47,621 bases of DNA, from the IMG/VR virus record IMGVR_UViG_3300042485_000448, positions 1 through 47,621 of that record. One strand, given 5' to 3'. The first letter of the stretch is position 1. Every line of letters starts with the position of its first letter. Below the pieces are notes generated by a model, which saw only the letters and a list, made by a program, of their open reading frames with translations, had not been told where the DNA came from and ran no database searches. This stretch comes from a virus. Below, one piece after another: positions 11,760 to 46,013 of this stretch. Both the position numbers and the translations under genes were made by a program.

Positions 11760-11768
11760 ATTTTACCA
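11760..11768 (-). promoter_or_regulatory. leaderless-type promoter for long chaperone
   Basis: TGGTAAAAT on the minus strand. The hexamer ends 7 nt before the ATG at 11752, so transcription would begin at or next to the start codon. No SD is present. Confidence 0.5.
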
Positions 11769-11773
11769 CAAAC

Positions 11774-11805
11774 AAAAAGCCCACCCCCAATTAAGGAGAT
11801 GGGCT
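11774..11805 (-). terminator. intrinsic terminator after tail tube gene
   Basis: Minus-strand hairpin: AGCCCA pairs with TGGGCT across a 16-nt loop and is followed by TTTTTG. It lies 15 nt past the tail-tube stop codon, so it separates abundant tube mRNA from the chaperone genes. Confidence 0.8.
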
Positions 11806-11820
11806 AGTTGTTAATTTATA

Positions 11821-12459
11821 TTAGATTGAACTTGAGTCCCAAGTACGGTCAACGATCTTACCGTATGAGCCAGAAGCGTCCTCTGGTAGCAAACGGAATG
11901 ATACTTCAAACATTGAAGCCTCATCACGCTTTGCTGATACTGTTACGTTTTCAATAGACAAAGCACGGTATGCTGTGTAGACTCGCTCAATGTATGGAGA
12001 ATCTGCACAATCACCTGTTCCTGGTCCAACTGCAACGATAGCACGTTCTACTGGGCACTCACCAATATCACCTGCAGAAAGATTCAATGTTCTTCCTGCT
12101 GATGTTGACTTATTTCCAGATAGATCATCTTCGTTTGCTGCCAATGAGAGAAGCAAGTTCTCTAGTGTAGCCTCAGCAAAAGCAGTTGCAAGGTTAACCT
12201 GCATTCCCTGCTTGTAAAGTTTAGCAACGTCAAGAATCTGGTCTACCTGGACTTCACCGAAGTCTGGTTGGAACTGCATTTCAAGACCGTTCATGGTATA
12301 ACCTACGTTTGTATAAGCAGCCTCATCAGACAAAGTTTCCTTGTATGATTCGCCGTTTACAAATGGCTCCAGTGTGCCTGGAGTTAGGGTTGTGTCTGCA
12401 ACGAAAAGCGCTGCTGCTCCAACGATAATGTTGGTAGAACTTCCACGACTATATGCCAT
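11821..12459 (-). CDS. major tail tube protein
   Basis: 212 aa. It begins MAYSRGSSTNIIVGAAALFV and includes ETLSDEAAYTNVGYTMNGLE and QFQPDFGEVQVDQILDVAK, the pattern of actinophage tail tube subunits in which strands report a fixed reference property through a beta barrel. A good SD (GAAGAGGTG) precedes ATG. It sits between the connector genes and the chaperones, flanked by its own -10 box upstream and a strong terminator downstream. That arrangement suits a high-copy virion protein. Confidence 0.85.
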   Translation of the reverse strand: MAYSRGSSTNIIVGAAALFVADTTLTPGTLEPFVNGESYKETLSDEAAYTNVGYTMNGLEMQFQPDFGEVQVDQILDVAKLYKQGMQVNLATAFAEATLENLLLSLAANEDDLSGNKSTSAGRTLNLSAGDIGECPVERAIVAVGPGTGDCADSPYIERVYTAYRALSIENVTVSAKRDEASMFEVSFRLLPEDASGSYGKIVDRTWDSSSI

Positions 12460-12523
12460 TTATTCACCTCTTCCTTAAAATAGATATTAAGTTGTTTTGG
12501 CGTGATTTGTTTCCTCAGCCTCA

Positions 12524-12532
12524 ATTATAACA
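12524..12532 (-). promoter_or_regulatory. extended -10 box for tail tube gene
   Basis: TGTTATAAT on the minus strand, immediately after the stop of the upstream 213-aa gene. It leaves a leader of about 57 nt before the tail tube ATG. Confidence 0.5.
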
Positions 12533-12537
12533 TTGTT

Positions 12538-13179
12538 TTATATAACTATTTTGTTTGCATCAGAGAGTCTTGCCTCTGGAGTCCAGTCAGAATATAGCAT
12601 CTGATCTTGATTTGACAAACCTGGGGTTATCGGTCCTGGTGCCTGGTGGTACTCAAAGTCAATGATTATCTTGTTACCGCCATAGGTGCGGGCTGTTCCA
12701 AAGTCAATAATGTCTCTGGTTTCTTCTAGTTGGTATACCTTAAAACTATGGAATAGGAACATGTTGTCTACGGTAGTTCCATCGTCTAACTGTACTTTTC
12801 GGTTGGCACACCAGGCATTTAACTCTTCAGCAGACTCATCTCCACGGTCAAGAAGCCTCAAGACAGCCTCCTGTGTTTGAATCATGGTTGGGATTGAGTC
12901 TTCTCCAAGTCCATAAAAATAATATAATATCTGTTCATTTTTTATGTGTGGAAACTTGTTCTTCTGCATCTTGATAAGTCTATCCCATGTACAGGCAACA
13001 CCGTTGCTTACTGGTGTATTGACATTATTTAGTATCATCCACTTTTCTGTAAGGTCGTCAAGATTAAATGGTGAAGGTGGAAAAAACGGGGTTACATATC
13101 CTAGGCTCTCACTTAGTTTTGATTGTAAGTACTTATTAATCCATAACAATGGAGTATTTAATAAATCTGTATTAGCCAT
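12538..13179 (-). CDS. head-tail joining protein (tail terminator candidate)
   Basis: 213 aa, overlapping the previous gene by 8 nt. It starts MANTDLLNTPLLWINKYLQ and has aromatic strands in the second half (MFLFHSFKVYQLEETRDIID, NKIIIDFEYHQAPGPI). It is the last gene before the tail tube, the usual place of the tail terminator that caps the tube. I recognise no sequence signature; the role rests on synteny. Confidence 0.6.
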   Translation of the reverse strand: MANTDLLNTPLLWINKYLQSKLSESLGYVTPFFPPSPFNLDDLTEKWMILNNVNTPVSNGVACTWDRLIKMQKNKFPHIKNEQILYYFYGLGEDSIPTMIQTQEAVLRLLDRGDESAEELNAWCANRKVQLDDGTTVDNMFLFHSFKVYQLEETRDIIDFGTARTYGGNKIIIDFEYHQAPGPITPGLSNQDQMLYSDWTPEARLSDANKIVI

Positions 13180-13849: not shown

Positions 13850-14295
13850 TAGATATCTGATGCCTGATTCTCTGAACGGCGTACCACTAATGCAAAATAC
13901 TCTGGATCTCCAAATGGTCCTATGATTGGTGACTGAGACTCAATCTCATATATTGTTGACTTTCCAGCCCTTGTTCCAGAGGTTTCTACGTATAAGGGGA
14001 CATCATTTTTTGTTCTAATGTTTGTAACAATAACATTTGTTATTGCATCTCCTACATTTTCTTCAGAAAAACGAATGTCCTTCTTTGTTCTTCCTACTAA
14101 GACTTTCTTTAATGTTATGTTTACATTTGTTTTTACTTCTTCATCTACCGTGCCATCTTTTGAAAAATTACAAACTACTGTCTTATTGAAGATCCAAGTC
14201 TTTTTAACATTTCCATAAGCACCCTGTTCAACTATTGGATAGTAAACATCTGCCTTCATTGGATACATGAAGTCTGTCTCTTCACATAGATCCAT
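13849..14295 (-). CDS. head-tail stopper / closure candidate
   Basis: 148 aa when started at ATG 14293-14295, which overlaps the upstream TAA by one base (TAATG). The open frame extends upstream to a TTG at 14307, but that would add only 4 residues and lacks an SD. The protein begins MDLCEETDFMYPMKADVYYP and has a beta-barrel-like alternation (KTWIFNKTVVCNFSKDG). Size and order fit the stopper family between adaptor and terminator. The function is inferred from position. Confidence 0.55.
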   Translation of the reverse strand: MDLCEETDFMYPMKADVYYPIVEQGAYGNVKKTWIFNKTVVCNFSKDGTVDEEVKTNVNITLKKVLVGRTKKDIRFSEENVGDAITNVIVTNIRTKNDVPLYVETSGTRAGKSTIYEIESQSPIIGPFGDPEYFALVVRRSENQASDI

Positions 14296-16881: not shown

Positions 16882-17421
16882 TTAATTAAATAGGTCGGAA
16901 TTTTTGAGGAAACGTCCGCCCCATAGGGATTTCTGAACCTTTACAGGCTCAAACTGCACGATCTCGCCTAGATCGCCAGACTTGCGGAAAGCGGTATCTT
17001 GCTCTACGGCATCTACTCTCTTTCCAAACTCATTGAACTGACCCTTGACTTGTGTTACTTCTGTAGACACAGTGTCAACGGACTTGCTAAGTGCTTCAAC
17101 CTGCTCATTAAGAGACTTAATGGTTGCAGCGAGATCGCCAAAGGCATTAGTAAGAGAGTTCTTGATTTCAGCAACTGCATCTACAATTGATTCATCTGAC
17201 TTTGCTACAGCAAGTTCGGCTTCAACTGCTGGAGCAACGCTCTCTTCTTCTACTACTGGAGCAGAAGGAACTGCACCACCATCATCTGACTTTTCAACAA
17301 CAGTATCTGCTGGTGTTTCGTCAGCGATTGCAGGAGTTTCTACTTCTGCTGGCTGTGCCTCTGGAGTAATCTCAACATTCTCAACTACAGCATCTACTGC
17401 TGTTTCTGTTGTTTCTGTCAT
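16882..17421 (-). CDS. nested scaffold protein (in-frame internal start)
   Basis: In-frame ATG at 17419-17421 preceded by a full SD (AAGGAGG at 17430-17436) with 8-nt spacing, stronger than that of the parent gene. The product would be 179 aa: MTETTETAVDAVVENVE, an acidic Pro/Ala-rich region, then a coiled coil, without the protease domain. This is the arrangement of lambda C/Nu3, where the scaffold is made from an internal start of the protease gene. The SD and ATG are seen directly; production of the protein is inferred. Confidence 0.65.
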   Translation of the reverse strand: MTETTETAVDAVVENVEITPEAQPAEVETPAIADETPADTVVEKSDDGGAVPSAPVVEEESVAPAVEAELAVAKSDESIVDAVAEIKNSLTNAFGDLAATIKSLNEQVEALSKSVDTVSTEVTQVKGQFNEFGKRVDAVEQDTAFRKSGDLGEIVQFEPVKVQKSLWGGRFLKNSDLFN

Positions 17422-18192
17422 TTGACTTACCTCCTTTGTAATCTTAATTGTACTAATGCCTTTAGCACTATCAACTAAGAACTTTATCATGTTTGCTTTT
17501 TCGTTATCACTTTTTTCTACGAAACCAATGTTTTCCATGTTCTTACCACTTACTGGGCTTTCTGCTGTTTCTGAGTCAGATACTAATACGATACCGTTTT
17601 CAGAATCGTAAAAAACATTTTCAATTACTGCATCTACTGATGCTCCAGAAATAACATTCTGGCCATTGACCTTTTCAACAGAAATAATGCTTGCAAACTG
17701 GTTTGCTGGGCTATCTACAAGAGATAGTTCATAAAGGTCGTAGTCCTTAATAATACGGATTGCCTTGTCCATTTCTGCATTGTATGCATCATCCCAAGAC
17801 TTAATGTTTCCACCAATAGAAAAACCACTATATGTGCCATCTAGGACTTTTTCCCAGGCATCTTGTGCACCCTTTGATACGTATGCAGATACGTAGACTC
17901 CGCTATAAAACTTCTTTGAATTAGGGTCAAAATACTTATCTTCTTTAAATGAGACAATCTTTCCTACCGCTGATGGTTGGTGCATTTCTCTTAGATTCCC
18001 ACGGAAATTTTTAAATGCCAAAAGACTTGCCTCAGTTGTAACAATATCATCTTGCTTATCAATATTGTCAAGAGTTGCAAATCCAGAAACCATTCTGCGT
18101 TCTATATCCACCTTGCCAATAGGCATTGACAGACGGACGCTATCCTTGTCTGTTGTCCAGTGTGCTTTATTGATTAACATATCGTTATCCAT
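16882..18192 (-). CDS. prohead protease fused to scaffold domain
   Basis: 436 aa. Residues ~15-165 form an HK97/XkdF-type prohead protease: a strand block (RRMVSGFATLDNIDKQDDIV), the likely catalytic His in REMHQPSAVGK, the likely nucleophile Ser in YSGFSIGG, and the conserved LYELSLVDSPANQ. From ~258 the protein is acidic and Pro/Ala/Glu-rich, then a coiled coil (LNEQVEALSKSVDTVSTEV), as in scaffolds. A TGGTATAAT box overlaps the first ATG, so the real start may be Met5 (18178-18180), with a near-leaderless transcript. An internal SD and ATG give a nested scaffold product (separate entry). Confidence 0.88.
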   Translation of the reverse strand: MDNDMLINKAHWTTDKDSVRLSMPIGKVDIERRMVSGFATLDNIDKQDDIVTTEASLLAFKNFRGNLREMHQPSAVGKIVSFKEDKYFDPNSKKFYSGVYVSAYVSKGAQDAWEKVLDGTYSGFSIGGNIKSWDDAYNAEMDKAIRIIKDYDLYELSLVDSPANQFASIISVEKVNGQNVISGASVDAVIENVFYDSENGIVLVSDSETAESPVSGKNMENIGFVEKSDNEKANMIKFLVDSAKGISTIKITKEVSQMTETTETAVDAVVENVEITPEAQPAEVETPAIADETPADTVVEKSDDGGAVPSAPVVEEESVAPAVEAELAVAKSDESIVDAVAEIKNSLTNAFGDLAATIKSLNEQVEALSKSVDTVSTEVTQVKGQFNEFGKRVDAVEQDTAFRKSGDLGEIVQFEPVKVQKSLWGGRFLKNSDLFN

Positions 18193-18199
18193 TATACCA
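18191..18199 (-). promoter_or_regulatory. extended -10 box overlapping protease start
   Basis: TGGTATAAT on the minus strand, whose last bases overlap the first ATG of the protease gene. Transcripts from it could not use that ATG but could begin a few nt before Met5. Confidence 0.45.
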
Positions 18200-18221: not shown

Positions 18222-19829
18222 TTATTGAGACGCTCTACCCTCTCCTTGTGGATTACGTCCATCAAGGGTTGCTGCCCCATCTGATTGACTATTTGTTCTT
18301 TGTGAATCTCGTTCACGGTTGCCAGCAAGGTTTGCTCTAGCATCTGTTGCTTGTCTTGGAGTCATTGTAAATGGAACATCTCCATCTTTTCTCTGTGGCA
18401 AATCAAGTGCTGTACGAGCCTCATTTGGAGTCATAACCTGAGTCTTAACGTATCTTTCAATAATCTGAGACTGTGCGATCTCATCAGTAAGGGTTAGTTC
18501 ATTAAACTTAAGTTCAAGAACATCTGTCTTTTCCTTAATGATCTTATTAACAACCTTTTCAAGATGATGCTGTGCAGGACGTGCAACCTGCTCTTTAAAT
18601 GTTCTATCCTGAGAAAGTGCTGCTGCAAGACCAGACTCTGATCCACCTAGTTTTGAGATAGGTACTTGATGAGCAATTAGAATGTCATCACGATTTTGTT
18701 TACGATACTCTTTAAATGATCCATCTTGAATACCGTTTTCAATAGGCTGCATGTTAAACTCAACTTTATTCCCATCTGTATCTCCAGGAAGTGGGATATA
18801 AAGAGTTCTGTGGGACTGAGACTTTAGTCCAGTCTGAAGGAATCTAAACATTTTATCTTCAGCATCGCCAGATAGTTTTGCACCCTTTAGAGTAATAATG
18901 TATCGTGGTACTGCCTTGTTTTCAAAGTAGTCAATGTTATATCTTGAGGCTAGTTGATCTCCGATTAGAGATGGCATTGCAGAAACAATATCTGGAATAC
19001 CATAGTAGGTGTTTAGTGGAGAATAAGACTTAATATGAATAATTTCATTTGCACGACTATCCGCTGTTACTGGGTTTGGATTGTTAGCCCCAAAGTTTCT
19101 AAAGTAAACAACTGCCTGACCAATAATCTGAAGGAAACCATCATTAAGTCTACGAACACGAACAGTGGTTGCTGGAATATGGCCAATGTAACCAATCTCA
19201 CCTTTTATTGTTCTACCAACTTCAATGAACCCATTGCCAGTTGCCTCAACATCTGTATAAACCTTTTCCATAATTTTTGTAAAACTATCATCATCGTTAA
19301 GGTTTTCTAGCCAGTCACGCAATTCAATTTTTGCTCTTTCAATTCTGTTTCTTGCCCTGTCGGTTGCTAACGCATCTTCTGACATTTCTAGTCTAAGTGC
19401 AGTTCTATCTGCAATATCAAAACGATATCCAAGGCCTACAATATTTTCTACCTTTGCATCAATTGCTGCATGGTTAGCAAAAGAGGTATCGTAGAAGTTT
19501 GCAAGTTCATACATGTTATATGGTGGTGTGATTACGTCAAATAGACCGTATCCATTTCTATATACCGTTCCAGGATTAAGAGCCTTTGATCCAGCATCTA
19601 CTCCAGATGGAACTGCATTTGCAGAATCTAAATATGCCTCATTTGGTGTTATTGCTTTGCTTACTTGTCTTGCTACACGACGACGGAAGTTTTGATCTAG
19701 GCCAGAGTATTTTTGTAACTCTTCCCAGTTTTTATTAAATGGGTCACTTAAATTAAACTTATTTTCTTCTTGCTCTTGAGTATTTAAACTTGCTCTAACA
19801 TACTGGAAGTTATCATCATCATCACTCAT
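18222..19829 (-). CDS. portal protein
   Basis: 535 aa from ATG 19827-19829, chosen because GGAAGGG lies 12 nt upstream; an ATG at 19850 would add 7 residues but has no SD. HK97/SPP1-type portal features: an N-terminal acidic region, a wing with YTDVEATGNGFIEVGR, the conserved IIHIKSYSPLNTYYGIPDI, then HQVPISKLGG and a helical stem and clip (EQVARPAQHHLEKVVNKIIK), ending in a disordered Gln/Ser/Gly tail. It forms the dodecameric DNA channel. It overlaps the upstream small gene by 8 nt and precedes the protease by about 30 nt. Confidence 0.9.
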   Translation of the reverse strand: MSDDDDNFQYVRASLNTQEQEENKFNLSDPFNKNWEELQKYSGLDQNFRRRVARQVSKAITPNEAYLDSANAVPSGVDAGSKALNPGTVYRNGYGLFDVITPPYNMYELANFYDTSFANHAAIDAKVENIVGLGYRFDIADRTALRLEMSEDALATDRARNRIERAKIELRDWLENLNDDDSFTKIMEKVYTDVEATGNGFIEVGRTIKGEIGYIGHIPATTVRVRRLNDGFLQIIGQAVVYFRNFGANNPNPVTADSRANEIIHIKSYSPLNTYYGIPDIVSAMPSLIGDQLASRYNIDYFENKAVPRYIITLKGAKLSGDAEDKMFRFLQTGLKSQSHRTLYIPLPGDTDGNKVEFNMQPIENGIQDGSFKEYRKQNRDDILIAHQVPISKLGGSESGLAAALSQDRTFKEQVARPAQHHLEKVVNKIIKEKTDVLELKFNELTLTDEIAQSQIIERYVKTQVMTPNEARTALDLPQRKDGDVPFTMTPRQATDARANLAGNRERDSQRTNSQSDGAATLDGRNPQGEGRASQ

Positions 19830-20220
19830 TTTCGTATGCATCCCTTCCATGTGTTTTTAATGTTTTCTGTGCATCAGCAATAGCGCCTAAGTCATTAACA
19901 TTTGGAATTAAACCTTGTCTCATTCTATCTTTTTGTTCTGAATACTCTTCTTCAGATACTCTTGTTAGTCCCGCAACAAAGTGGGCTGTTCCTTCTCCAT
20001 CGTCACCATTAAATATTGCAGCCCTCTTAAGTTCTGCAATCTTTGATATGTCACCTTTTTGAGAGGGAATGTTTAATACAGAACCAGTTCCGTCAGTAAA
20101 CCATTTTCCGTTTGATTTCTTATATACATATAGACCCCAGTCATAATGCTTATCAATGACCTTACGTCGTACATTTTCAACAATTGGTTTGCCAGTTTTT
20201 GGGCTAAATAAAGAATCCAT
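19822..20220 (-). CDS. small conserved protein upstream of portal
   Basis: 132 aa from ATG 20218-20220; the frame extends to another ATG at 20226. TATACT ends 7 nt before 20220, so that start fits a leaderless mRNA. The protein is strand-rich at first (DWGLYVYKKSNGKWFTDG) and then charged and helical (VSEEEYSEQKDRMRQGLIPN). Proteins of this size occur just upstream of portals in actinophages. The function is unknown. Confidence 0.6.
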   Translation of the reverse strand: MDSLFSPKTGKPIVENVRRKVIDKHYDWGLYVYKKSNGKWFTDGTGSVLNIPSQKGDISKIAELKRAAIFNGDDGEGTAHFVAGLTRVSEEEYSEQKDRMRQGLIPNVNDLGAIADAQKTLKTHGRDAYENE

Positions 20221-20227
20221 AACCATA

Positions 20228-20236
20228 AGTATACCA
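20228..20236 (-). promoter_or_regulatory. leaderless-type promoter upstream of portal unit
   Basis: TGGTATACT on the minus strand. Its hexamer ends 7 nt before the ATG at 20220. Confidence 0.5.
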
Positions 20237-26644: not shown

Positions 26645-27568
26645 TTAAGGCGTAACTGTAACACTAAAGTTTGATAATGTTGAACCTTGATCAACAATTG
26701 ATGTACCGTGGAATAGTCCAACCCCTTGGCCCTTTACTGGGCTAGATGGAGTATTTGAACCACTGCCTATAGTAGATCCACCCTTATTTGCAGCACTGTA
26801 AAGAGTATAAGAAATTGTACTTCCTGAAGTGCTGATTGCAATAGATTGGGCTTTTGAAAATCCAGAATTGTTTGTATTGTATGTATTGGTAACTAAATCG
26901 GTAGCAGATCCACTTTCAACTTTTCTTAAATTGGCTATAGAATTATAAGTGGTAGTTGTTATAGTTTGATTTATATTTCCTGTAACATAATATAGAGTCT
27001 CAGAGGCACCTGAAGAATACCCTCTAGGTGCACAGTTGTTAGGGCTGCAGCACACCTGATAGCCGACAACTGGATCATTAGGTGAGTTTCGATTTTCAAT
27101 ACACTCATAATAAGTAATAGTAAATGGGCTACTACATCCACCACAAAACCCTAAGCCTGCACAACCAACACCCTGTCTTGTTTGTTGTAATGAACATGTT
27201 GTGTTTGTTGCTGAAGAGGATGTGTATGATGGATAGAAAGCATAGTAGTTATTAGCATCTGTTACCCAAAAGGATAGCCCAGAACCACCATTTGAGCCAG
27301 TATCTACCTGAAGATTGGTGATGTTTGTTCCATCTAAATCAACAACAGCAACGTTATTTCCTGATGCTAGAGCGTTAGAAACACTAGAACTTCCATTTGC
27401 TTGCCAAGTTCCTACAACGTTTTTCCAAAGACCCTTACCATCACTTGATGTTCCAAGATTTCCAGATGTTGTTCTGTTAAATGAGTCAATTAATGCTAAA
27501 AGCAAGTTCTTGCCGAAACGACCAAACCCTCTTACAGATCCGCCTCCACGAGCACCTAGCAATGGCAT
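26645..27568 (-). CDS. Cys-rich variable adhesin-like tail protein (paralogue 1)
   Basis: 307 aa. The conserved N-terminus (MPLLGARGGGSVRGFGRFGK, then D-S-F-N-R-T-T-S-G-x-L-G-T-S-S-D-G-K) and conserved C-terminus (SIAISTSGSTISYTLYSA and a closing strand SNFSVTVTP) resemble a LamG/concanavalin jelly roll. Between them, residues ~120-200 are a variable Cys-rich insert (GVGCAGLGFCGGCSSP, YQVCCSPNNCAPRG). Two paralogues lie at 34704 and 36089. The protein is likely a virion-surface receptor-binding or carbohydrate-binding component. The gene has its own promoter and a leader nearly identical to those of the other copies. Confidence 0.72.
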   Translation of the reverse strand: MPLLGARGGGSVRGFGRFGKNLLLALIDSFNRTTSGNLGTSSDGKGLWKNVVGTWQANGSSSVSNALASGNNVAVVDLDGTNITNLQVDTGSNGGSGLSFWVTDANNYYAFYPSYTSSSATNTTCSLQQTRQGVGCAGLGFCGGCSSPFTITYYECIENRNSPNDPVVGYQVCCSPNNCAPRGYSSGASETLYYVTGNINQTITTTTYNSIANLRKVESGSATDLVTNTYNTNNSGFSKAQSIAISTSGSTISYTLYSAANKGGSTIGSGSNTPSSPVKGQGVGLFHGTSIVDQGSTLSNFSVTVTP

Positions 27569-32002: not shown

Positions 32003-32443
32003 TTAAGCCTTCAAACCAGTACGCATGTAGCGTAAGGTAATCGGGGTCTGACCCACCACGGGAACTACAGTTAGGTTAACTGTGCCTCCTGCCCTAGAGA
32101 CGCTAATGGTGCCAATATTCCCATCATTGTCTACTGTTCCATATTCACTGACGTTATCATTTGTACCATCAGGGACTATGGTTAACTCTGTTGTGAAGAA
32201 CTTGTCTCCAGTGCTCTTCTTTAATGTGACCACGTACTTAACGGATCTCCATTCTGAGGCAGTAAAATTATCAAAGATTGTGCTGTTCTCAATACCAGTG
32301 ATTGTTACTTCGTTGTTACCAGCAGTACCCAGATCTGTTGCCTGGGCTGCAGAGGTGTCAATTAAGTCAACATAGTTTGCTTCGGTTGGTCTATCACCTG
32401 TCTGAAACAGGGCCTTTACGTTTGCTAATGATATTTTCGCCAT
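32003..32443 (-). CDS. fibre-associated protein with shared C-terminal domain
   Basis: 146 aa. N-terminal MAKISLANVKALFQTGDRPT EANYVDLID is a phage fibre/baseplate start motif. The C-terminal half (VKYVVTLKKSTGDKFFTTEL, then VSEYGTVDNDGNIG) is homologous to the tip of the 707-aa fibre immediately downstream. No SD is visible; TATAAT ends 6 nt before the ATG, so this is a clear leaderless candidate. Confidence 0.7.
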   Translation of the reverse strand: MAKISLANVKALFQTGDRPTEANYVDLIDTSAAQATDLGTAGNNEVTITGIENSTIFDNFTASEWRSVKYVVTLKKSTGDKFFTTELTIVPDGTNDNVSEYGTVDNDGNIGTISVSRAGGTVNLTVVPVVGQTPITLRYMRTGLKA

Positions 32444-32449
32444 GTCTGA

Positions 32450-32458
32450 ATTATATCA
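32450..32458 (-). promoter_or_regulatory. leaderless promoter for 146-aa gene
   Basis: TGATATAAT on the minus strand with exactly 6 nt between hexamer and ATG, so the start codon coincides with the expected transcription start. Confidence 0.65.
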
Positions 32459-33099: not shown

Positions 33100-33626
33100 T
33101 ATGCCAAACCTGCTTTCATTGATCCCCACGTTCCATTGCCTTTTGGTTGTCCAACAATAATTATTCCAGTTGATGCATTTGATTTAGCAACTACTGCTAC
33201 CGCACCTGATCCACCTGCTGGGATCGTATCTGTAAGTCCTCCACCATTTGCAACATATAATATTTCTCCAGCGGTATAAGAAGAAGTGTCAATGTCCTCA
33301 AACACTCCAGAGATAATAATTACTCCATTTGCGTTATTTGCAATTGATGCTTGTGTTATTCCTACCACTGGAAATGTTGCTAGATCATCTGAGTCAGATT
33401 TTGCAATTAATGGTTTTGTTGAATACCCTGAAATATATACAGGAGTTCCTTTTGCAATTGTTGCACCTGTTGTATTTCTAACTTCAAGTGAAATAAAAGG
33501 AAGACCAACGTTTGAAATAACATCTTCTATTTTTTCTGCTAATGACTGAATATCCTCATGGACATTTACAGGGTCAGTTAAAAGGGGGTAAGGAAGATCA
33601 TAAGTTGTAGTTGCACCAGTAGCCAT
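33099..33626 (-). CDS. tail/baseplate protein with YISGYS-type barrel
   Basis: 175 aa from ATG 33624-33626. The frame is open to an ATG at 33656, but a TGGTATAAT box lies between the two, 10 nt before 33626, so the shorter form is preferred. The N-terminus (TTTYDLPYPLLTDPVNVHED IQSLAEKIE) resembles attachment segments of phage fibres. The rest is a beta unit (ATIAKGTPVYISGYS, FPVVGITQASIANNANGVII, GEILYVANGGGL) like fibre-associated capping domains. The function is inferred. Confidence 0.6.
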   Translation of the reverse strand: MATGATTTYDLPYPLLTDPVNVHEDIQSLAEKIEDVISNVGLPFISLEVRNTTGATIAKGTPVYISGYSTKPLIAKSDSDDLATFPVVGITQASIANNANGVIIISGVFEDIDTSSYTAGEILYVANGGGLTDTIPAGGSGAVAVVAKSNASTGIIIVGQPKGNGTWGSMKAGLA

Positions 33627-33636
33627 AGTACTTATT

Positions 33637-33645
33637 ATTATACCA
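33637..33645 (-). promoter_or_regulatory. near-leaderless promoter, 175-aa gene
   Basis: TGGTATAAT on the minus strand, 10 nt before the ATG at 33626. It is the first promoter of the minus-strand run left of the lysin gene. Confidence 0.5.
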
Positions 33646-33691: not shown

Positions 33692-33721
33692 TTGACTTTA
33701 AAGCCAAATTCATGTTATAAT
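33692..33721 (+). promoter_or_regulatory. sigma70-type promoter of lysin gene
   Basis: TTGACT (33692-33697), 18-nt spacer, TATAAT (33716-33721) with TG upstream of the -10. It is the only promoter in the middle of the window with both a good -35 and -10. Expected start is near 33728. Confidence 0.7.
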
Positions 33722-33727
33722 TAATAC

Positions 33728-33751
33728 ATGCTACTAACAAGTAGCATTTTT
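33728..33751 (+). promoter_or_regulatory. 5'-terminal hairpin in lysin leader
   Basis: ATGCTAC pairs with GTAGCAT around a 6-nt loop, beginning at the expected first transcribed base and followed by TTTTTAG. It may stabilise the mRNA or act as an early attenuator. The SD TAGGAGG follows at about 33758. Confidence 0.5.
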
Positions 33752-33772
33752 AGTCTCTAGGAGGTTTTTATT

Positions 33773-34318
33773 ATGAGAAGAGATTTAAAGGCTTGGATTG
33801 GAATCCTAGCATTGGTAGGGGTTGTTGCACCATTTAGCAACTTTGCCAATGCGTCAAGTACGGAAAATAACTTACTAATTAAACAGGCTGAAAACCCTGC
33901 TGCCACCCACAAGGTGGCTTTTGTTGTTTCTAAAGCAAAAATGTTAGAACGTTATGAAAACAAAACACATCTTACAGATGTTGAATTAAAAGACCTTCTT
34001 CACCTTGTTGGGTTTAGAGGTAATGATTTAGTAGTGGCTTGGGCTATTGCCAAGAAAGAATCTAATGGTCGTCCTTTAGCATTTAACGGAAACCATAAGA
34101 CTGGGGACTCATCCTACGGGGTGTTTCAAATTAATATGATTGATAACTTGGGTCCAGACAGACGAGATAAGTTTGATCTTGACTCTAACGCTGAATTATT
34201 TAATCCAGTAAAAAATGCTGAGATTGCATACTATATGTCTAGGGGTGGAGAAGATTGGTCTTCTTGGAAAGGCATAACACCTAAAACTAGAATGTGGATG
34301 AATAAATTTCCTAAATAG
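33773..34318 (+). CDS. secreted lytic transglycosylase / lysin
   Basis: 181 aa. Residues 1-27 form a Sec-type signal peptide (RR..K, hydrophobic WIGILALVGVVAPF, cleavage after FANA). The C-terminal ~100 residues are an SLT/lysozyme-like domain: catalytic Glu96 in AIAKKESNGRPLA, SYGVFQINM at 114-122, and AYYMSRGGEDWSSWKG. It cleaves peptidoglycan glycan strands. It is the only plus-strand gene between 1 and 43.7 kb, with its own promoter and terminator. A signal peptide suggests export without a holin. A virion or superinfection role is less likely. Confidence 0.85.
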   Translation: MRRDLKAWIGILALVGVVAPFSNFANASSTENNLLIKQAENPAATHKVAFVVSKAKMLERYENKTHLTDVELKDLLHLVGFRGNDLVVAWAIAKKESNGRPLAFNGNHKTGDSSYGVFQINMIDNLGPDRRDKFDLDSNAELFNPVKNAEIAYYMSRGGEDWSSWKGITPKTRMWMNKFPK

Positions 34319-34703: not shown

Positions 34704-35642
34704 CTATAGTACTGTCGTTACACTAAAATTACTTACAGAAGAGCCTTGGTTTGATCCACCATCACTATGAAAGATTCCAACTCCAGGACCCTTAGTTGGG
34801 GTTGTTGCTGTATATGCTCCAGTATGTAATAAACTGCCACCTTTATTTGCTGCAGAATATACTGAGTATGTAATTACGTTTCCTACAGTTGAAATTGCTA
34901 TTGATCCTGCAGAAGCAAATGCAGATGTGTTTGTATTGTACTCTGTATTTACTACCGTTCCTGAATTATTTAGTAACTTAAAGTTAGAAAGGTAGTTAGT
35001 TCCTGAAAATGACTGGGTAGTTGACGAACATCCATATGCAGTAACTGAGTCTCTGTAATTAGGCTGCCCACCATAGTATTGGCAAGCACCCTGTCCAATT
35101 TCAGCAACCTGAAATGTATTTGATGTTGTAGTCCATGTCTGATAGCCACGACCATAATTGCAATAAACATACCAAACGTAGTAACTTGATGATTGGTTAC
35201 AACCACCACATGCTCCAAAACAACTTCCTGGACAACCACCTGCCTGTAGGCCAGATCCTCCTCCAGTGCAAGTTGAATAGTTATAAGAACTAGTTGAGTT
35301 TGATGTTGTTGATGCCCACCAGTTGTTAGCATCTGTTACCCAAAATGCTAGTCCAACTCCTGAAGTGTTTCCTGTATCAACCTGAAGATTTGAAATAACT
35401 GTTGCATCTAAGTCTACAACAGCAATATTGTTTCCTGATGCTGCGGCGTTTGAAGAACCAGCACTTCCATTTCCTTGCCAGGTTCCTCTAACATTTTTCC
35501 ACACAGCCTTACCATCGCTTGATGTTCCAAGGGAGCCAGAGGTTGTTCTATTTAAAGAATCAAGAAAAGCAAGTAATATGTTCTTGCCAAAACGGCCAAA
35601 ACCTCTTATGGAACCCCCACCACGAGAACCCATCATTGGCAT
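34704..35642 (-). CDS. Cys-rich variable adhesin-like tail protein (paralogue 2)
   Basis: 312 aa. N-terminus MPMMGSRGGGSIRGFGRFGK and C-terminal SIAISTVGNVITYSVYSA are conserved with the two other copies. The central insert differs and is rich in Cys, Gly, Tyr (TCTGGGSGLQAGGCPGSCFG, then ACGGCNQSSSYYVWYVYC). The pattern of constant flanks and a divergent Cys-rich centre implies a displayed, diversifying loop on a jelly-roll scaffold. It has the same promoter and leader as the other copies. Confidence 0.72.
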   Translation of the reverse strand: MPMMGSRGGGSIRGFGRFGKNILLAFLDSLNRTTSGSLGTSSDGKAVWKNVRGTWQGNGSAGSSNAAASGNNIAVVDLDATVISNLQVDTGNTSGVGLAFWVTDANNWWASTTSNSTSSYNYSTCTGGGSGLQAGGCPGSCFGACGGCNQSSSYYVWYVYCNYGRGYQTWTTTSNTFQVAEIGQGACQYYGGQPNYRDSVTAYGCSSTTQSFSGTNYLSNFKLLNNSGTVVNTEYNTNTSAFASAGSIAISTVGNVITYSVYSAANKGGSLLHTGAYTATTPTKGPGVGIFHSDGGSNQGSSVSNFSVTTVL

Positions 35643-36088: not shown

Positions 36089-36997
36089 TTATGCGGTTAC
36101 GGTTACTTCAATATTATTTAATGTGCTGCCTTGTTCTGTTATAGATGTTCCTTTAAATAGACCTATCTTATTTCCTTTTATTGGACTAGATGGAGTATTT
36201 GATCCAGATGCGAGTAGGGATCCACTTTTTCCTGTACCGCTGTAAAAACTATAAGATATTGTGTCACCTGATGTACTAATTGCAATTGAGTTAGTCTTAG
36301 AATAGGCTGAACTGCTAGAGTTATAGTTTGAACTTATTAATTCAGTTTCTGATCCAGATTCAACTTTTTTTAAATTTACTCTTGATGTATAGTTTGATGT
36401 AACAATTGTTTGATTTCTAGTACCATTTGTGTAAAAGGAGGTGCTCCATTGTACTCCTGGATTCCAGCCTGATCCAAAATTATAACAACAGTTATTGCCC
36501 GAGCAATATGCATATTGACCAAAGCCTGGTCCGTAGCATTCCCACTCTGGAACACTGTAAGAATTTCCATTTGCACAAAATCCAGAATAATTATTCTGTC
36601 CAGAATTTGTTGATGCTAAAGAGCATGTTGTAGATGAAGAAGTTGTTAAATTATAAGATGGAAAAATAGCATAGTAGTTATTAGCATCTGTTACCCAGAA
36701 AGATAACCCTACTCCTCCGCTTGCATTAACATCAACTTGTGCATTTGTAATTGTTGATCCATCAAGAGTTATTGTTGTAATACTATTATTAGATGCTGCA
36801 TCTGCGTTAATTGCAGAAGAGCCATTTCCAATCCAGGCTCCTCTTATATTTGACCATATTCCCTTGCCATCACTTGATGTTCCCAAAGTTCCAGAGGTTG
36901 ATCTATTAAGGTTGTCTATAAAGGATAAAAGCAAGGCTTTGCCAAAACGACCAAACCCTCTTACAGATCCACCTCCACGAGCACCCAGCAATGGCAT
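36089..36997 (-). CDS. Cys-rich variable adhesin-like tail protein (paralogue 3)
   Basis: 302 aa. N-terminus MPLLGARGGGSVRGFGRFGK is identical over 18 or more residues to paralogue 1, and FWVTDANNYYAIFPSYN and the C-terminal SIAISTSGDTISYSFYS are also close. The central segment (SGFCANGNSYSVPEWECYG, YAYCSGNNCCYNFGSG) is unrelated in sequence except for its cysteines. Paralogues 1 and 3 are closer to each other than either is to paralogue 2. Confidence 0.72.
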   Translation of the reverse strand: MPLLGARGGGSVRGFGRFGKALLLSFIDNLNRSTSGTLGTSSDGKGIWSNIRGAWIGNGSSAINADAASNNSITTITLDGSTITNAQVDVNASGGVGLSFWVTDANNYYAIFPSYNLTTSSSTTCSLASTNSGQNNYSGFCANGNSYSVPEWECYGPGFGQYAYCSGNNCCYNFGSGWNPGVQWSTSFYTNGTRNQTIVTSNYTSRVNLKKVESGSETELISSNYNSSSSAYSKTNSIAISTSGDTISYSFYSGTGKSGSLLASGSNTPSSPIKGNKIGLFKGTSITEQGSTLNNIEVTVTA

Positions 36998-40987: not shown

Positions 40988-40993
40988 GGATCT

Positions 40994-40999
40994 ATTTTA
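40994..40999 (-). promoter_or_regulatory. leaderless -10 box for collagen-like gene
   Basis: TAAAAT on the minus strand with 6 nt to the ATG. It overlaps the stop codon of the 26-aa ORF. Confidence 0.5.
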
Positions 41000-41077: not shown

Positions 41078-41490
41078 AATGTGCCACTAACATCTCCAAG
41101 AACACAGATTGTTCCAACAACTGGAGTCCAAACTGTTTCAAGATCTCCTCCACCGCCAGATACTCCATCTCCAGGAATTGTGGCGGTAAGGTCAAATCTC
41201 AACTCTGCAACAATAGGCTTATACTTAGCAATACCCCAGTTAGCAGTTATATCTTGACTAGCAATAATAAAAACTGTTCCATCGTCATATGATTCAACGA
41301 CTAGTTCATCTACAAAATCTCCTGCTGGATCATAGGCTGAAGCAGAAAATGTCCATCCACTTGTATCGTAGGCTGTTACTTCATCATCTTCAAGAAAATC
41401 TACTCTAAGGTTTGCAGTGTCTCCACGGACCACTGTCCATTGGATATTGGCTGGTGAGGCACCGAGTTTTTCAATTAAAGGAGAGCACAT
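41074..41490 (-). CDS. BppU-N-like baseplate domain protein (third copy)
   Basis: 138 aa: IQWTVVRGDTANLRVDFLED, then WTFSASAYDPAGDFVDEL and ETVWTPVVGTICVLGDVSG. It is clearly related to the proteins at 32686 (VNWTIVKGDTASFKIYL) and 39872. TATAAT lies 8 nt before the ATG and no SD is visible, so it is near-leaderless. Confidence 0.65.
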   Translation of the reverse strand: MCSPLIEKLGASPANIQWTVVRGDTANLRVDFLEDDEVTAYDTSGWTFSASAYDPAGDFVDELVVESYDDGTVFIIASQDITANWGIAKYKPIVAELRFDLTATIPGDGVSGGGGDLETVWTPVVGTICVLGDVSGTL

Positions 41491-41498
41491 AATACTAG

Positions 41499-41507
41499 AT
41501 TATACCA
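41499..41507 (-). promoter_or_regulatory. near-leaderless promoter, 138-aa gene
   Basis: TGGTATAAT on the minus strand, 8 nt before the ATG at 41490. Confidence 0.55.
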
Positions 41508-41515
41508 CAAAGTCT

Positions 41516-42289
41516 TTAATCAGATATAACATTTTTCTTTATTTCCTTTAAAACTACATTTTTTAAAGATGTTCTTTTAAATAAATCATATAGGTCCTTC
41601 ATTGGAACAAACTTTTTAAAATATTTATAGTTTATACAGGCAGACACCTGATCTACAATATCGTCAGTTACCATAAATTGATGAAATCTGATAGGTTTTT
41701 CTGTATCAAAAGAAATATATCCTATGGCATCTCCTTGATTTAACTCAAACGTTTTTGATTCTTCCCACATCTGAAAAATAAAAGTAACTGGCCTTAACCA
41801 TGAAGATATGCTAAATTTTGCAGGGGCAAGAAAGGCATCATTTCTGTATGAAGTTTTATGTATATATGCTGGCGTTAGTGTAATATTGACATTTTCTTCA
41901 TCTGTAAAAAATAAATATCCAAAATTAAAATCAAATGAAAAAGAATCTTTTAGTGAAGATGCTCTTTCATTAAAGAAGATAGAGTCTTTAGTGTTTTTTA
42001 TTATTTCTCCATTTTCATTAAATTGTATTTTTGCAGAAATTGGAGACTTTATAACAAACATATTTTTTGAAAGTGTATGTAGAGCAGAACATTGTTGATA
42101 TCCGTTTGCCTGAAATGTTTCAACTTTTGGTATTTTTGGAGAGATAGCCTTGTTTTTTATTAGATCGGCTGTCATTTTTTCTGGAGCAACATCCATCAAC
42201 ATTCTGTGAAAGTTTTGATTTTTTTCCCCATATGAAGACCAATAAATGTCAACATAGTCTTTAGATTCTTTTTTATTTTTTATTTTCAC
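41516..42289 (-). CDS. conserved phage protein, family of three (member 1)
   Basis: 257 aa, GTG start. Homologous to the 246-aa gene at 43787 and more distantly to the 250-aa gene at 44752. Shared order: D-I-Y-W-S near the start, a CSAL/CPAI segment followed by FVIKSP strands, LFFTDEENVNITLTPAYIHK, WLRPVTFIFQMWEESKTFEL, and a basic C-terminus (LKEIKKNVISD). The fold looks all-beta. I cannot name the family. TACAAT lies 6 nt before GTG, so a leaderless GTG-start mRNA is likely. Confidence 0.65.
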   Translation of the reverse strand: MKIKNKKESKDYVDIYWSSYGEKNQNFHRMLMDVAPEKMTADLIKNKAISPKIPKVETFQANGYQQCSALHTLSKNMFVIKSPISAKIQFNENGEIIKNTKDSIFFNERASSLKDSFSFDFNFGYLFFTDEENVNITLTPAYIHKTSYRNDAFLAPAKFSISSWLRPVTFIFQMWEESKTFELNQGDAIGYISFDTEKPIRFHQFMVTDDIVDQVSACINYKYFKKFVPMKDLYDLFKRTSLKNVVLKEIKKNVISD

Positions 42290-42295
42290 CTAATG

Positions 42296-42304
42296 ATTGT
42301 ATCA
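42296..42304 (-). promoter_or_regulatory. leaderless promoter with GTG start
   Basis: TGATACAAT on the minus strand with 6 nt to the GTG at 42289. It directly follows the T-tract of a terminator. Confidence 0.55.
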
Positions 42305-42361
42305 TAAAAAGGCTGGACACCCTAAGCGCAGTGGGGTGGGGGTAGAACTTAGGGTGTCAGC
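42305..42361 (-). terminator. long-loop terminator downstream of holin-candidate gene
   Basis: A 14-bp stem (GACACCCTAAG with CTTAGGGTGTC plus GCT/AGC) encloses a 21-nt loop that is C-rich on the minus strand. It is followed by CTTTTTATG. It ends the transcript from the 84-aa gene about 230 nt past its stop. Confidence 0.75.
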
Positions 42362-42841: not shown

Positions 42842-42850
42842 AATGAGATT

Positions 42851-42859
42851 ATTATATCA
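42851..42859 (-). promoter_or_regulatory. near-leaderless promoter, 84-aa gene
   Basis: TGATATAAT on the minus strand, 9 nt before the ATG at 42841. No SD is present. Confidence 0.5.
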
Positions 42860-43612: not shown

Positions 43613-43618
43613 ATAGTC

Positions 43619-43627
43619 ATTATAGCA
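43619..43627 (-). promoter_or_regulatory. leaderless promoter starting the minus-strand run
   Basis: TGCTATAAT on the minus strand with 6 nt to the ATG at 43612. Confidence 0.65.
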
Positions 43628-43749: not shown

Positions 43750-43786
43750 GGATTGTAGTATGCTTTAAAAATAAAGAAAGGGTAAA

Positions 43787-44527
43787 ATGTCAAAAAAAGA
43801 TGAAATAGTCATATACTGGTCCGATAGTTCAACAAGTAAAGGAATAAATGACAATCCTTTGTTCTATCCAAAACCAAAATCATTATTTGATGACATGCGT
43901 GAAAATAAGGTACAAAGAGAAAATACAGGCTCTTATTTTACATGCCCTGCAATATCTAACAAAGCAAAAAATACATTTGTATTTAAAGGAACAATGGATT
44001 GCGAATATAGGTATGATTTCTCAGATGGAAAAAGACTTATTTCTAGCGTTAATGGCAACTATTATAATTTTAAAAATGATAGGAGCCCGATGTTATCTTA
44101 TGGCCCTACATTTTTGTTTGATCTGCAATATCATTTTTTTTCAGAAGAGTCTGTTGATGCATTTTTTACTCCGCCATATTTTCATAAACCAACATATACA
44201 AACTATGGATCTGTAATTCCAGGAGAGTTCAATATTGGAAAGTGGTTTAGACCCTATCTTTTTGAAATTCAAACATGGAAAAATAAGGGAGAGATAAAGT
44301 TTGAAGATAATGAGCCTTTATTCTATGTTGAGTTTAAAACAAACAAAAAGGTTGTATTAAAAAGGTTTAAAATTAATGAGCAACTGTATGAGTATTCAAG
44401 AAAGTGCGTTGATTCAACCCATCTTTTTGGCAGAGGGCAGTCTTTGTTTTCTAGGTACAACCGATTTAAAGATGTTGATTTAGATAAAAAAGTCTTGTTT
44501 GAAATAAAAAATAACCTTCTAGATTAG
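43787..44527 (+). CDS. conserved phage protein, family of three (member 2)
   Basis: 246 aa. Closest to member 1 (41516): VIYWSDSSTSKG, FTCPAISNKAKNTFVFKG, HFFSEESVDAFFTPPYFHKP, WFRPYLFEIQTWKNKGEIKF and a C-terminal LFEIKNNLLD that mirrors LKEIKKNVISD. The fold is probably all beta. Very AT-rich codon use (Lys AAA, Phe TTT). It lies 25 nt upstream of a zinc-ribbon gene and the third family member, suggesting a small functional unit. No known function. Confidence 0.65.
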   Translation: MSKKDEIVIYWSDSSTSKGINDNPLFYPKPKSLFDDMRENKVQRENTGSYFTCPAISNKAKNTFVFKGTMDCEYRYDFSDGKRLISSVNGNYYNFKNDRSPMLSYGPTFLFDLQYHFFSEESVDAFFTPPYFHKPTYTNYGSVIPGEFNIGKWFRPYLFEIQTWKNKGEIKFEDNEPLFYVEFKTNKKVVLKRFKINEQLYEYSRKCVDSTHLFGRGQSLFSRYNRFKDVDLDKKVLFEIKNNLLD

Positions 44528-44540
44528 TTGCAAGATAGGA

Positions 44541-44546
44541 TATACT
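44541..44546 (+). promoter_or_regulatory. leaderless -10 box for zinc-ribbon gene
   Basis: TATACT with exactly 6 nt to the ATG at 44553. No SD. It shows that the leaderless pattern also holds on the plus strand. Confidence 0.6.
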
Positions 44547-44552
44547 AGATAT

Positions 44553-44750
44553 ATGAGTGATGATGTAAAGCCTTGGGATCTATTCAATGGATCTCCTAGA
44601 AGTCCTGAAGAGGTAGCAGCACATAGATTAGAGATTTGCAAAGGTTGTGATTTCTTTAGACCAAAAACCCAAACATGCAAGAAGTGTGGTTGTTTTATGG
44701 CTGCTAAATCAATGTTGGCTAATGCTAGGTGTCCTATAGGAAAGTGGTAA
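44553..44750 (+). CDS. six-cysteine zinc-ribbon-like small protein (second copy)
   Basis: 65 aa. Cysteines 29, 32, 42, 45, 47 and 60 in ICKGC, CKKCGCFMAAK and CPIGKW, the same spacing as the 80-aa protein at 26391 apart from one residue. N-terminal KPWDLFNGSP matches RPWDIFNKN there. It likely binds one or two Zn ions. It is placed between two members of the three-member family and ends 1 nt before the next start. Confidence 0.7.
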   Translation: MSDDVKPWDLFNGSPRSPEEVAAHRLEICKGCDFFRPKTQTCKKCGCFMAAKSMLANARCPIGKW

Positions 44751-44751
44751 G

Positions 44752-45504
44752 ATGAGTAAAATAAGATTTGTTAGCAGGGTTCCAGGTTTATCAGAACTTG
44801 AATGGGCAAGGCCAAAACCTGCAAAGGCGTTTATACCTGAATGGTTTAAATCTATGCCTGCAAGTGTAAATACAGAGGACGGTCCAGTTAGTACTGCTAG
44901 GGTATGTCCTGCATTGCCAGATTATTTTTCACAAGGATATATTCTGCCCATGTGGATGGACTCAGATCTTGCTTATGATAAAGAGACTCGTTCTTTTTCT
45001 GCAAAATCATCTCCTGGTTTTGATAAATGGTCAATTCATCCAAACTCACAATTCTTAGATTATACAGATGCTTCAAACCTTGGAGTTAAATCTGAGTTTA
45101 TATTTAAGTCTGTATGTCCTTGGTATGCAATTACTGAACCTGGTTGGTCTGTATTGCAGTTGCCTATATTTTATAACTTTAATAAAAATTGGACAGTGCT
45201 ACCTGGAATTGTTGATACAGATATACACCACGAATTAAATCAGCAACTACTATTCCATAGCGACAAAGAAAGGGTTGTTATAAAGGCTGGAGAGGCTTTT
45301 GTTTTATACATCCCGTTTAAAAGAGAAAAGCATAAACTAGAAGTAGGAGATGCTAATGAAAAAGAATTAAAAAAGTTTAACTTACAGATGCTCGATACAT
45401 TTGCAAGATTTACACCAACTGGAATTTACAGAAAAAACCAAAGAGATCGTGATAAACCTAAAAAAGGATTTTTAGAAAACCTTAGAGATAGGTTAGAAGA
45501 GTAA
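44752..45504 (+). CDS. conserved phage protein, family of three (member 3, divergent)
   Basis: 250 aa. IRFVSRVPGLSELEWARPKP, FIPEWFKSMP, then CPALPDYFSQGYILPMWMDS, YAITEPGWSVLQLPIFYNFN and VVIKAGEAFVLYIPFKRE. It aligns with the CPAI, beta-sandwich and KAGE/FEDNE steps of members 1 and 2. TDIHHELNQQLLFH contains two adjacent His and a Glu that could bind metal, but members 1 and 2 lack them. The F-I-P-x-W-F-K-x-M-P motif is common in uncharacterised phage proteins. Function unknown. Confidence 0.65.
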   Translation: MSKIRFVSRVPGLSELEWARPKPAKAFIPEWFKSMPASVNTEDGPVSTARVCPALPDYFSQGYILPMWMDSDLAYDKETRSFSAKSSPGFDKWSIHPNSQFLDYTDASNLGVKSEFIFKSVCPWYAITEPGWSVLQLPIFYNFNKNWTVLPGIVDTDIHHELNQQLLFHSDKERVVIKAGEAFVLYIPFKREKHKLEVGDANEKELKKFNLQMLDTFARFTPTGIYRKNQRDRDKPKKGFLENLRDRLEE

Positions 45505-45523
45505 CAAAACGTTATTCTTTTAT
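45499..45523 (+). terminator. terminator after 44.7-kb gene
   Basis: GAGTAAC pairs with GTTATTC (one G-U) around a 5-nt loop, followed by TTTTAT. It overlaps the end of the convergent minus-strand 46-aa gene. Confidence 0.6.
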
Positions 45524-45652
45524 ATGATCAGACTCTGATTTGCAAGAACATCCATTGCAACAGGTTTCTGAAAATATTTTTACAGCCAGAGATGTGGATT
45601 CTGTCTCAAATAAAGGATATGTATTGTTGTCTACGTTATCTAGTATGGCCAT
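45512..45652 (-). CDS. 46-aa Cys-rich protein next to IscA
   Basis: ATG at 45650-45652 has SD GAGGGG 6 nt upstream. A longer frame to 45760 overlaps iscA out of phase and lacks an SD, so the short form is preferred. The product (MAILDNVDNNTYPLFETEST...) ends with ETCCNGCSCKSESDHIKE, a cluster of four cysteines suited to metal or Fe-S binding. It follows iscA by 16 nt, so a role in cluster transfer is conceivable but unproven. Confidence 0.6.
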   Translation of the reverse strand: MAILDNVDNNTYPLFETESTSLAVKIFSETCCNGCSCKSESDHIKE

Positions 45653-45668
45653 TTGATTCCCCTCGAAA

Positions 45669-45998
45669 TTAGTTAAAACTGTCTCCGCATGCACAAGATC
45701 CTTGAGCATTGGGATTGTCAAGTACAAAACCTTGTTTTTCAATTGTGTCAACGAAATCAAGCGTAGCCCCTTGTAAATAAGGAACAGACATTCTATCTAA
45801 CTTTAATGTAAAGTCTTCAAAGTTATAATCCGTATCTCCGTCTAACTTTTCATAGTCAAAGAAGGTTTGATATCTAAGTCCAGAACATCCACCAGGCTGA
45901 ACAGAGATTCTTAGGAAGATCTCTCTATCTGGGATAGATATGCGAGAGTCTCCTATGAGTTCCGAAACTTTTTGTTTTGCTTTTTCTGTAAGAATCAT
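45669..45998 (-). CDS. iscA: A-type Fe-S cluster carrier (IscA/ErpA/HesB family)
   Basis: 109 aa, the normal family length. The three conserved cluster ligands are present: Cys38 in QPGGCSGLRY and Cys102/Cys104 in GSCACGDSFN. It carries and delivers [2Fe-2S]/[4Fe-4S] clusters to apo-proteins. Known in some phages of oligotrophic waters as an auxiliary metabolic gene. It starts 6 nt after TGCTATAAT with no SD (leaderless). Confidence 0.92.
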   Translation of the reverse strand: MILTEKAKQKVSELIGDSRISIPDREIFLRISVQPGGCSGLRYQTFFDYEKLDGDTDYNFEDFTLKLDRMSVPYLQGATLDFVDTIEKQGFVLDNPNAQGSCACGDSFN

Positions 45999-46004
45999 AT
46001 TTTA

Positions 46005-46013
46005 ATTATAGCA
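46005..46013 (-). promoter_or_regulatory. leaderless promoter of iscA
   Basis: TGCTATAAT on the minus strand, 6 nt before the ATG at 45998. Confidence 0.65.

Follow-up and report, generated by a model that had tools for sequence, protein, structure and literature searches.

The 47,621-nucleotide (nt) window analysed here (IMG/VR record IMGVR_UViG_3300042485_000448, positions 1 to 47,621) is part of a tailed phage, most likely of an actinobacterium, and a distant relative of the Streptomyces phages of the family Stanwilliamsviridae. In several of its genes a TATAAT-like hexamer is separated from the start codon by exactly 6 nt, and leaderless mRNA made from TGnTATAAT promoters by the host RNA polymerase is very probably the best explanation of this arrangement. 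In the mechanism that we propose, a subset of genes would be transcribed from extended -10 promoters of the form TGnTATAAT, which lack a clear -35 signal, each placed so that transcription would begin with the start codon itself; the resulting mRNA would have neither a leader nor a Shine-Dalgarno (SD) sequence, its translation would follow the leaderless route, and many other phage genes would use an SD leader. We infer the transcript 5' ends, the use of a host sigma factor, the host and the mode of translation from DNA sequence.

The original prediction listed six genes with the 6-nt spacing, and all six spacings were found. On the minus strand, TGATATAAT (hexamer TATAAT, 32450-32455) and its spacer occupy 32444-32455 before ATG 32443; TAAAAT (40994-40999) and its spacer (40988-40999 in all) precede ATG 40987 of a collagen-like tail-fibre-type gene; TGATACAAT (TACAAT, 42296-42301; 42290-42301 with the spacer) precedes GTG 42289; and TGCTATAAT, with TATAAT, occurs twice, at 43613-43624 (hexamer 43619-43624) before ATG 43612 and at 45999-46010 (hexamer 46005-46010) before ATG 45998. 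On the plus strand, TATACT (44541-44546; 44541-44552 with the spacer) precedes ATG 44553 of a DUF6171 gene. The gene at 32003-32443 has a weak match to a tail-fibre connector family (E value 0.0005). The product of the gene at 45669-45998 (minus strand) has a Pfam iron-sulphur biosynthesis domain and is presumably of the ErpA/IscA type; neither this gene nor the DUF6171 gene is structural, and the description of the set as structural genes does not extend to them.

For the count in the window, we used 47 longest open reading frame (ORF) starts, which are independent of the choice made in the original prediction; three doubtful ORFs of 50 (45512-45760, 46614-46814 and 47123-47323) were removed beforehand. 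TANNNT hexamers that agree with TATAAT in five or six of the six positions were scored at each distance, and 837 internal ATGs and 2000 dinucleotide shuffles served as controls. Six of the 47 starts had such a hexamer at 6 nt, whereas the internal ATGs predict 0.34 (binomial P = 1.1e-6) and the shuffles gave a mean of 0.46 and at most 4. At 6 or 7 nt there were 7 starts for 0.67 expected (P = 4.7e-6) and no more than 6 in any shuffle; the range of 8-10 nt gave 3 starts for 0.67 (P = 0.03), and that of 3-5 nt none for 0.84. The exact string TATAAT-N6-ATG was present four times in the window and absent from the reversed control.

Genes of related contigs were called by a coding-potential script blind to the upstream signal. 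In eight contigs with 560 called starts (contig G001, described below, was tallied apart and G008 omitted), exact TATAAT was found at 6 nt before 13 starts, compared with 0.2 for internal ATGs and a shuffle mean of 0.69 per position, and TANAAT before 22 starts, compared with 0.7 and 2.5 respectively. At 7 nt each of the two forms was observed once, and at 3-5 nt there was one exact TATAAT in all. So that relatives were not counted repeatedly, 717 genes of ten contigs were also grouped into 194 families and compared with 200 control draws: the number of families with TANAAT at 6 nt was 14, where the draws averaged 0.94 and never exceeded 6, and with exact TATAAT it was 8, where they averaged 0.34 and never exceeded 2. 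The string TATAAT-N6-ATG occurred 63 times in the ten phage contigs, compared with 19 in the reversed control. The predicted excess over shuffled sequence at 6-7 nt was thus found in the window, in the eight contigs and by family.

The spacing is conserved in orthologs. The loci were reduced to distinct upstream regions with the start codon in place for 32443 (80 to 43), 45998 (26 to 18), 43612 (42 to 28), 44553 (80 to 56) and 11752 (80 to 28). For 32443 the hexamer stood at 6 nt in all 43 regions, with 24 different spacers. For 45998 it did so in 14 of the 18, with 11 spacers, two of the other four being SD-like by eye; and for 43612 in 15 of the 28, with 13 spacers, some of the others being AGGAG-like, hence SD-like, by eye. 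Because some orthologs of these last two genes lack the hexamer at 6 nt and carry SD-like sequence, it appears that the upstream sequence of a single gene can suggest a leaderless mRNA in some phages and an SD leader in others. Protein matches begin at residue 1 in all of the best 80 relatives for 32443 and in 25 of 26 for 45998. For gene 40225, used as a leadered control, 47 of 54 upstream regions had a near-consensus hexamer 15-18 nt before the start and 53 of 54 had an SD sequence; for the second intended control, 26645-27568, the ortholog search returned only its own phage.

An SD sequence was found in 2 of 43 genes with a hexamer at 6-7 nt compared with 342 of 674 other genes, a difference that is partly forced because the hexamer fills part of the SD region. 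TGn precedes 13 of 24 hexamers at 6-7 nt, compared with 14 of the 82 found at 34-50 nt; extended -10 elements have the textbook form TGnTATAAT. There was no clear enrichment of a -35 element: TTGACA-like sequences were present with 11 of 24 hexamers at 6-7 nt (shuffle mean 7.4) and with 46 of 138 at 14-32 nt (shuffle 46.4). Among phage genes with TANNNT at 6 nt in nine contigs, 50 of 52 start with ATG and 51 of 52 with ATG or GTG, and this codon would supply the +1 base.

Both ends of the IMG/VR contig IMGVR_UViG_3300044970_000539 (G001; 105,135 bases) are 100% identical to the window (1-47621), 127 bases of which match both ends. Because of this identity and overlap the window would span the arbitrary ends of a circular assembly, and G001 probably represents a complete phage genome of about 105 kb, circular or circularly permuted. 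Relatives of its head protease were found at at least 593 places in IMG/VR, and 127 of the 139 named-phage records that match the protease are Streptomyces phages; the portal is 44-47% identical among the named-phage matches listed. The Stanwilliamsviridae phages NootNoot and Muntaha have homologs of the portal, protease, capsid, tail protein, chaperone and tape measure genes in the same order. Their proteins are about 26-47% identical to those of the window phage, and the pieces compared have a GC content of 49-53%, whereas that of the window phage is about 37%. The same 6-nt peak was observed in these two phages: 8 of 103 called genes in the first 100 kb of NootNoot and the first 50 kb of Muntaha have TANNAT at 6 nt, compared with 0.2 expected, and the head protease of both phages is among them.

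The host is most likely an actinobacterium, as judged from a WhiB protein encoded by G001 (Pfam score 46 bits, cut-off 23.6), from the matches of the 45998 protein and from the Streptomyces phage relatives. The best 80 matches of the 45998 protein comprise 79 in records titled as actinobacteria and one in Acidobacteria, with 57-63% identity over nearly the full length and 68-73% in matches limited to residues 26-109. The host would belong to a freshwater group with small genomes. G001 also encodes Hsp20, beside WhiB and the ErpA/IscA-type protein. A scan with a head-protease alignment for phage contigs inside host genomes, as a route to the host, gave 68 pattern hits and no relative.

We tested candidate hosts in pieces of three genomes (GC 44-49%, 366 called genes) of the genus of genome L143 (G013), found through the 45998 protein and titled as an Actinomycetota bacterium, with an isolate name that points to a reservoir. 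TANNNT stood at 6 nt before 70 of the 366 genes, compared with 2.3 expected, which is the distance given for actinobacterial leaderless genes in PMC3160421, and no clear excess was seen at 8, 9 and 10 nt (3, 5 and 1 genes, compared with 3.3, 2.4 and 2.3). Across the order, 161 of 251 genomes contain at least one TATAAT-N6-ATG, a figure that records presence only. The idea that gene 45998 brought its promoter from a host was not supported: many of 80 cellular loci of this type show a GGAG-type sequence by eye, TANNNT lies 7 nt before the printed start only in L182 and L193, and in L133, L136, L155 and L194 it lies before a far-upstream alternative start. Taken together, ortholog spacing with drifting spacers, the scarcity of SD sequences, the same spacing in candidate hosts and in Streptomyces relatives, and the actinobacterial markers argue for the leaderless reading of the original prediction.

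Spacings longer than 6 nt had also been predicted, and all were present, the 7-nt ones at 11752 and 20220 and those of 8, 9 and 10 nt at 41490, 42841 and 33626; all are on the minus strand. TGGTAAAAT (TAAAAT, 11760-11765; 11753-11765 with the spacer) lies 7 nt before ATG 11752 of a long-form gene resembling those of tail assembly chaperones, and in 26 of the 28 distinct upstream regions of its orthologs the hexamer that fits best lies 7, 8 or 9 nt from the start. TATACT (20228-20233; 20221-20233 with the spacer) lies 7 nt before ATG 20220 of the gene preceding the portal. TGGTATAAT lies 8 nt before ATG 41490 (hexamer 41499-41504; 41491-41504 with the spacer) and 10 nt before ATG 33626 (33637-33642; 33627-33642), and TGATATAAT lies 9 nt before ATG 42841 (42851-42856; 42842-42856). 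The start at 33626 differs from the longest-ORF start, 33656, and similar genes have the hexamer at 9 nt in related contigs G003 and G009. Spacings of 7-10 nt without an SD sequence are conserved for several genes. Since transcription would start about 6-8 nt after the hexamer, the leaders of such genes would be no longer than about 4 nt; those at 8-10 nt are probably a near-leaderless class, separate from the 6-nt genes.

The head maturation protease belongs with the longer spacings. In its ORF (16882-18192, minus strand) the longest-ORF ATG, 18192, overlaps the -10 hexamer (TATAATG), and TGGTATAAT (hexamer 18191-18196; 18181-18196 with the spacer) lies 10 nt before ATG 18180. The true start is most likely 18180, because residue 1 of the NootNoot and Muntaha proteases aligns with residue 5 of the window ORF and because TATAAT lies 9 nt (n = 9) or 10 nt (n = 21) before the conserved methionine in 30 of 30 distinct tabulated upstream regions. 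Only regions in which this methionine was found by the motif MLINK were tabulated; the printed loci without the motif show TATAAT nearby by eye. For the gene before the portal, ATG 20220 is the second ATG of ORF 19822-20226; the Muntaha and NootNoot relatives carry hexamers 6 nt from their called starts, and the deposited NootNoot start, 23305, is 6 nt upstream of the called one, 23311. We favour 20220 over 20226. That promoter geometry selects start codons, as first proposed, is therefore supported at 18180 and 20220.

Several observations weigh against the leaderless reading or limit its reach. The relatives give weak support to two of the six genes, the 6-nt spacing being found in just 1 of 7 family members for 40987 and 1 of 3 for 42289, and for 44553 only 25 of 56 ortholog upstream regions have the hexamer at 6 nt (19) or 7 nt (6). 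In the eight contigs, exact TATAAT also exceeded control at 8, 9, 11, 15-17 and 22-25 nt, and looser hexamers did so at 0-1 nt, these excesses being smaller than or equal to that at 6 nt; by family the next highest distance was 25 nt (11 families), and 0-1 nt was again in excess. We interpret the excesses from 8 nt upwards as leadered promoters, near-leaderless genes and miscalled starts; the 11-nt peak is mixed, containing the head protease with its called start, SD genes and others. It follows that 6 nt is one sharp peak among several and that 7 nt is no general phage peak. The spacing of the leadered control gene 40225 is narrow as well (45 of 54 at 15-16 nt), so that constancy alone is no proof of leaderlessness; the weight falls on the distance of 6 nt itself, the drift of the spacers and the scarcity of SD sequences. 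The identity of the host, deduced as described above, is a further weak point. Candidate hosts have an excess at 7 nt (12 genes, compared with 2.7) that has no counterpart in the phages, and their hexamer at 6 nt is TA(G/A)G(C/A)T followed by T, without TGn, whereas that of the phages is TGnTATAAT; phage and candidate host thus share the spacing and not the hexamer, and TATAAT-N6-ATG was not enriched in 27 genomes of the candidate genus (24, compared with 58 in the reversed control). Finally, one of the four TATAAT-N6-ATG strings of the window, at 33716-33730 (plus strand), is conserved in five copies and precedes the SD-led gene 33773. A leaderless short ORF at 33728 was rejected as its frame is lost in two of the five copies. 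The string is probably inside a 5' leader, that is, part of a promoter with a structured leader, and for this reason TATAAT-N6-ATG does not always mark a gene start.

Chance matches in the A+T-rich regions near starts of a 37% GC genome are a barely credible source of the 6-nt spacing. Loose TANNNT hexamers are common at many distances, and chance may still account for single genes such as 40987, but neither dinucleotide shuffles nor internal ATGs reproduce the excess at 6 nt, close matches at 7 nt and at 3-5 nt are about as frequent as in the controls or rarer, and orthologs keep the spacing, which refutes this explanation for the group. It is very unlikely that the promoters are real and the adjoining start codon unused, translation beginning at a downstream codon or gene. 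The string at 33716-33730 would fit such a situation, as would the two ORFs whose starts had to be shifted by two or four codons (20226 to 20220 and 18192 to 18180). The shifted starts, however, end at 7 and 10 nt and leave little or no leader, and for 32443 and 45998 protein matches run from residue 1, with the spacing to that codon fixed or mostly fixed.

If the true 5' ends were 1-5 nt upstream of the start codon, the 6-nt and 8-10-nt groups would form one near-leaderless class. The conservation of 7-10-nt spacings without SD in the 11752 orthologs and the head protease is in keeping with this view, to which we assign a small chance; a sharp peak at 6 nt with few genes at 7 nt is nevertheless what transcripts beginning with the start codon itself should produce, and the main peak of the candidate host is also at 6 nt. 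A phage-encoded or alternative sigma factor might instead read the hexamers, the spacing then serving that factor and not leaderless translation. We consider this improbable: the hexamer has the textbook extended -10 form, TGnTATAAT-type promoters are also found 15-18 nt before the SD-led gene 40225, and no match to sigma-70 region 2 was obtained in the three phage contigs searched, G001-G003 (other sigma families were not searched). A search for a phage-type RNA polymerase (PF00940) was uninformative, as the control genomes had no match. In favour of a dedicated factor, the phage hexamer is unlike that of the candidate host, and two Nanopelagicales phages encode a sigma-70 factor according to passages of PMC10202952.

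Leaderless expression is a known mode in the likely host phylum. Passages of PMC3160421 interpret TA signals located some 12 bp ahead of the start as marks of leaderless genes, which make up more than 20% of genes in Actinobacteria, and in mycobacteria an ATG or GTG at +1 is described in PMC4633059 as necessary and sufficient for leaderless translation. The genes of the window phage share with these a first T of the -10 hexamer about 12 bp upstream, the lack of SD, an ATG or GTG start and a mixture with SD-led genes; they differ in belonging to a phage, in having TGn and a near-TATAAT hexamer compared with the looser TANNNT of the candidate host, and in the predominance of ATG noted above. The novelty is less than the original prediction implied: in passages of PMC4351075, a few leaderless promoters are predicted in five close Cluster O mycobacteriophages, such as Corndog. 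In contrast, the spacing in the window phage was tested against controls, is conserved across an environmental group and peaks at the same distance in Streptomyces relatives; what the evidence suggests to be new is that leaderless expression is widespread and conserved in a phage group and present in those relatives. Lactococcal leaderless genes, as passages of PMC10986495 present them, have leaders of less than 5 nt and form a class apart from long leaders, as is proposed here, but they are genes of a firmicute host and were mapped by sequencing. No published test of this spacing across a phage group was found by title or abstract, most subscription journals being outside the search.

Other features of the window lie beside these promoters. 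Terminator-like inverted repeats with T runs, recognized by eye, abut the -10 hexamer of the next gene at 42290-42360 and 11753-11800, an arrangement also seen in upstream regions of related phages; one transcript would then end where the next starts. Upstream of gene 45998, at 46119-46179, the palindrome CACTAGTG occurs three times, these being its sole copies in the window; three copies arose in 2 of 100 shuffles, and the palindrome is a possible operator. The genes at 41516-42289 (minus strand) and 43787-44527 (plus strand) both match phrog_17480, a PHROG of unknown function, each with an E value of 2.4e-21. At 33714-33772 (plus strand) the promoter TGTTATAAT is followed by a small conserved hairpin and by AGGAGG before gene 33773-34318; two of the five copies have the stem GCTACC..GGTAGC in place of GCTACT..AGTAGC, both arms having changed together, and this structured 5' leader is possibly regulatory. 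The promoter and leader of three minus-strand genes, 26645-27568, 34704-35642 and 36089-36997, are almost the same (TATAAT, aaaacaacataaggag, then ATGCC). In the tail assembly chaperone region (10676-11752, minus strand), which has two ORFs in Muntaha, the window carries an unbroken gene of 234 amino acids (aa), 11048-11752, and after it a second gene, 10676-11005, whose 109-aa product is a paralog of the N-terminal part of the first (47% identity over 97 aa). Two-ORF tail assembly chaperones are usually read through a programmed frameshift. Among relatives, the complete first ORF is unbroken in 79 of 79 (230-240 aa), and an ORF of 85-180 aa follows within 250 nt in 71 of 79; gene duplication may have replaced the frameshift.

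A further, rather doubtful possibility is that leaderless and near-leaderless mRNAs are a deliberate mode of expression, in which strong TGnTATAAT promoters abutting structural and accessory genes would feed leaderless (70S-type) initiation. These genes would then not have to compete for free 30S subunits, and the expression of each would be set by the precise distance between its transcription start and its start codon. If so, the near-leaderless group (e.g. 5'-GNU-AUG in the head protease) would be an initiation class that is not clearly above chance in the candidate host. For annotation, a -10 hexamer at 6-10 nt can outrank the longest ORF, and two starts in the window were moved on this ground. 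The leaderless pattern fits an actinobacterial host for a phage without an isolate. In conclusion, leaderless expression is probably conserved, head genes included, in an uncultured group of actinophages that has many relatives in databases, and also in its cultured Streptomyces relatives; a direct experiment becomes possible in laboratory Streptomyces phages.

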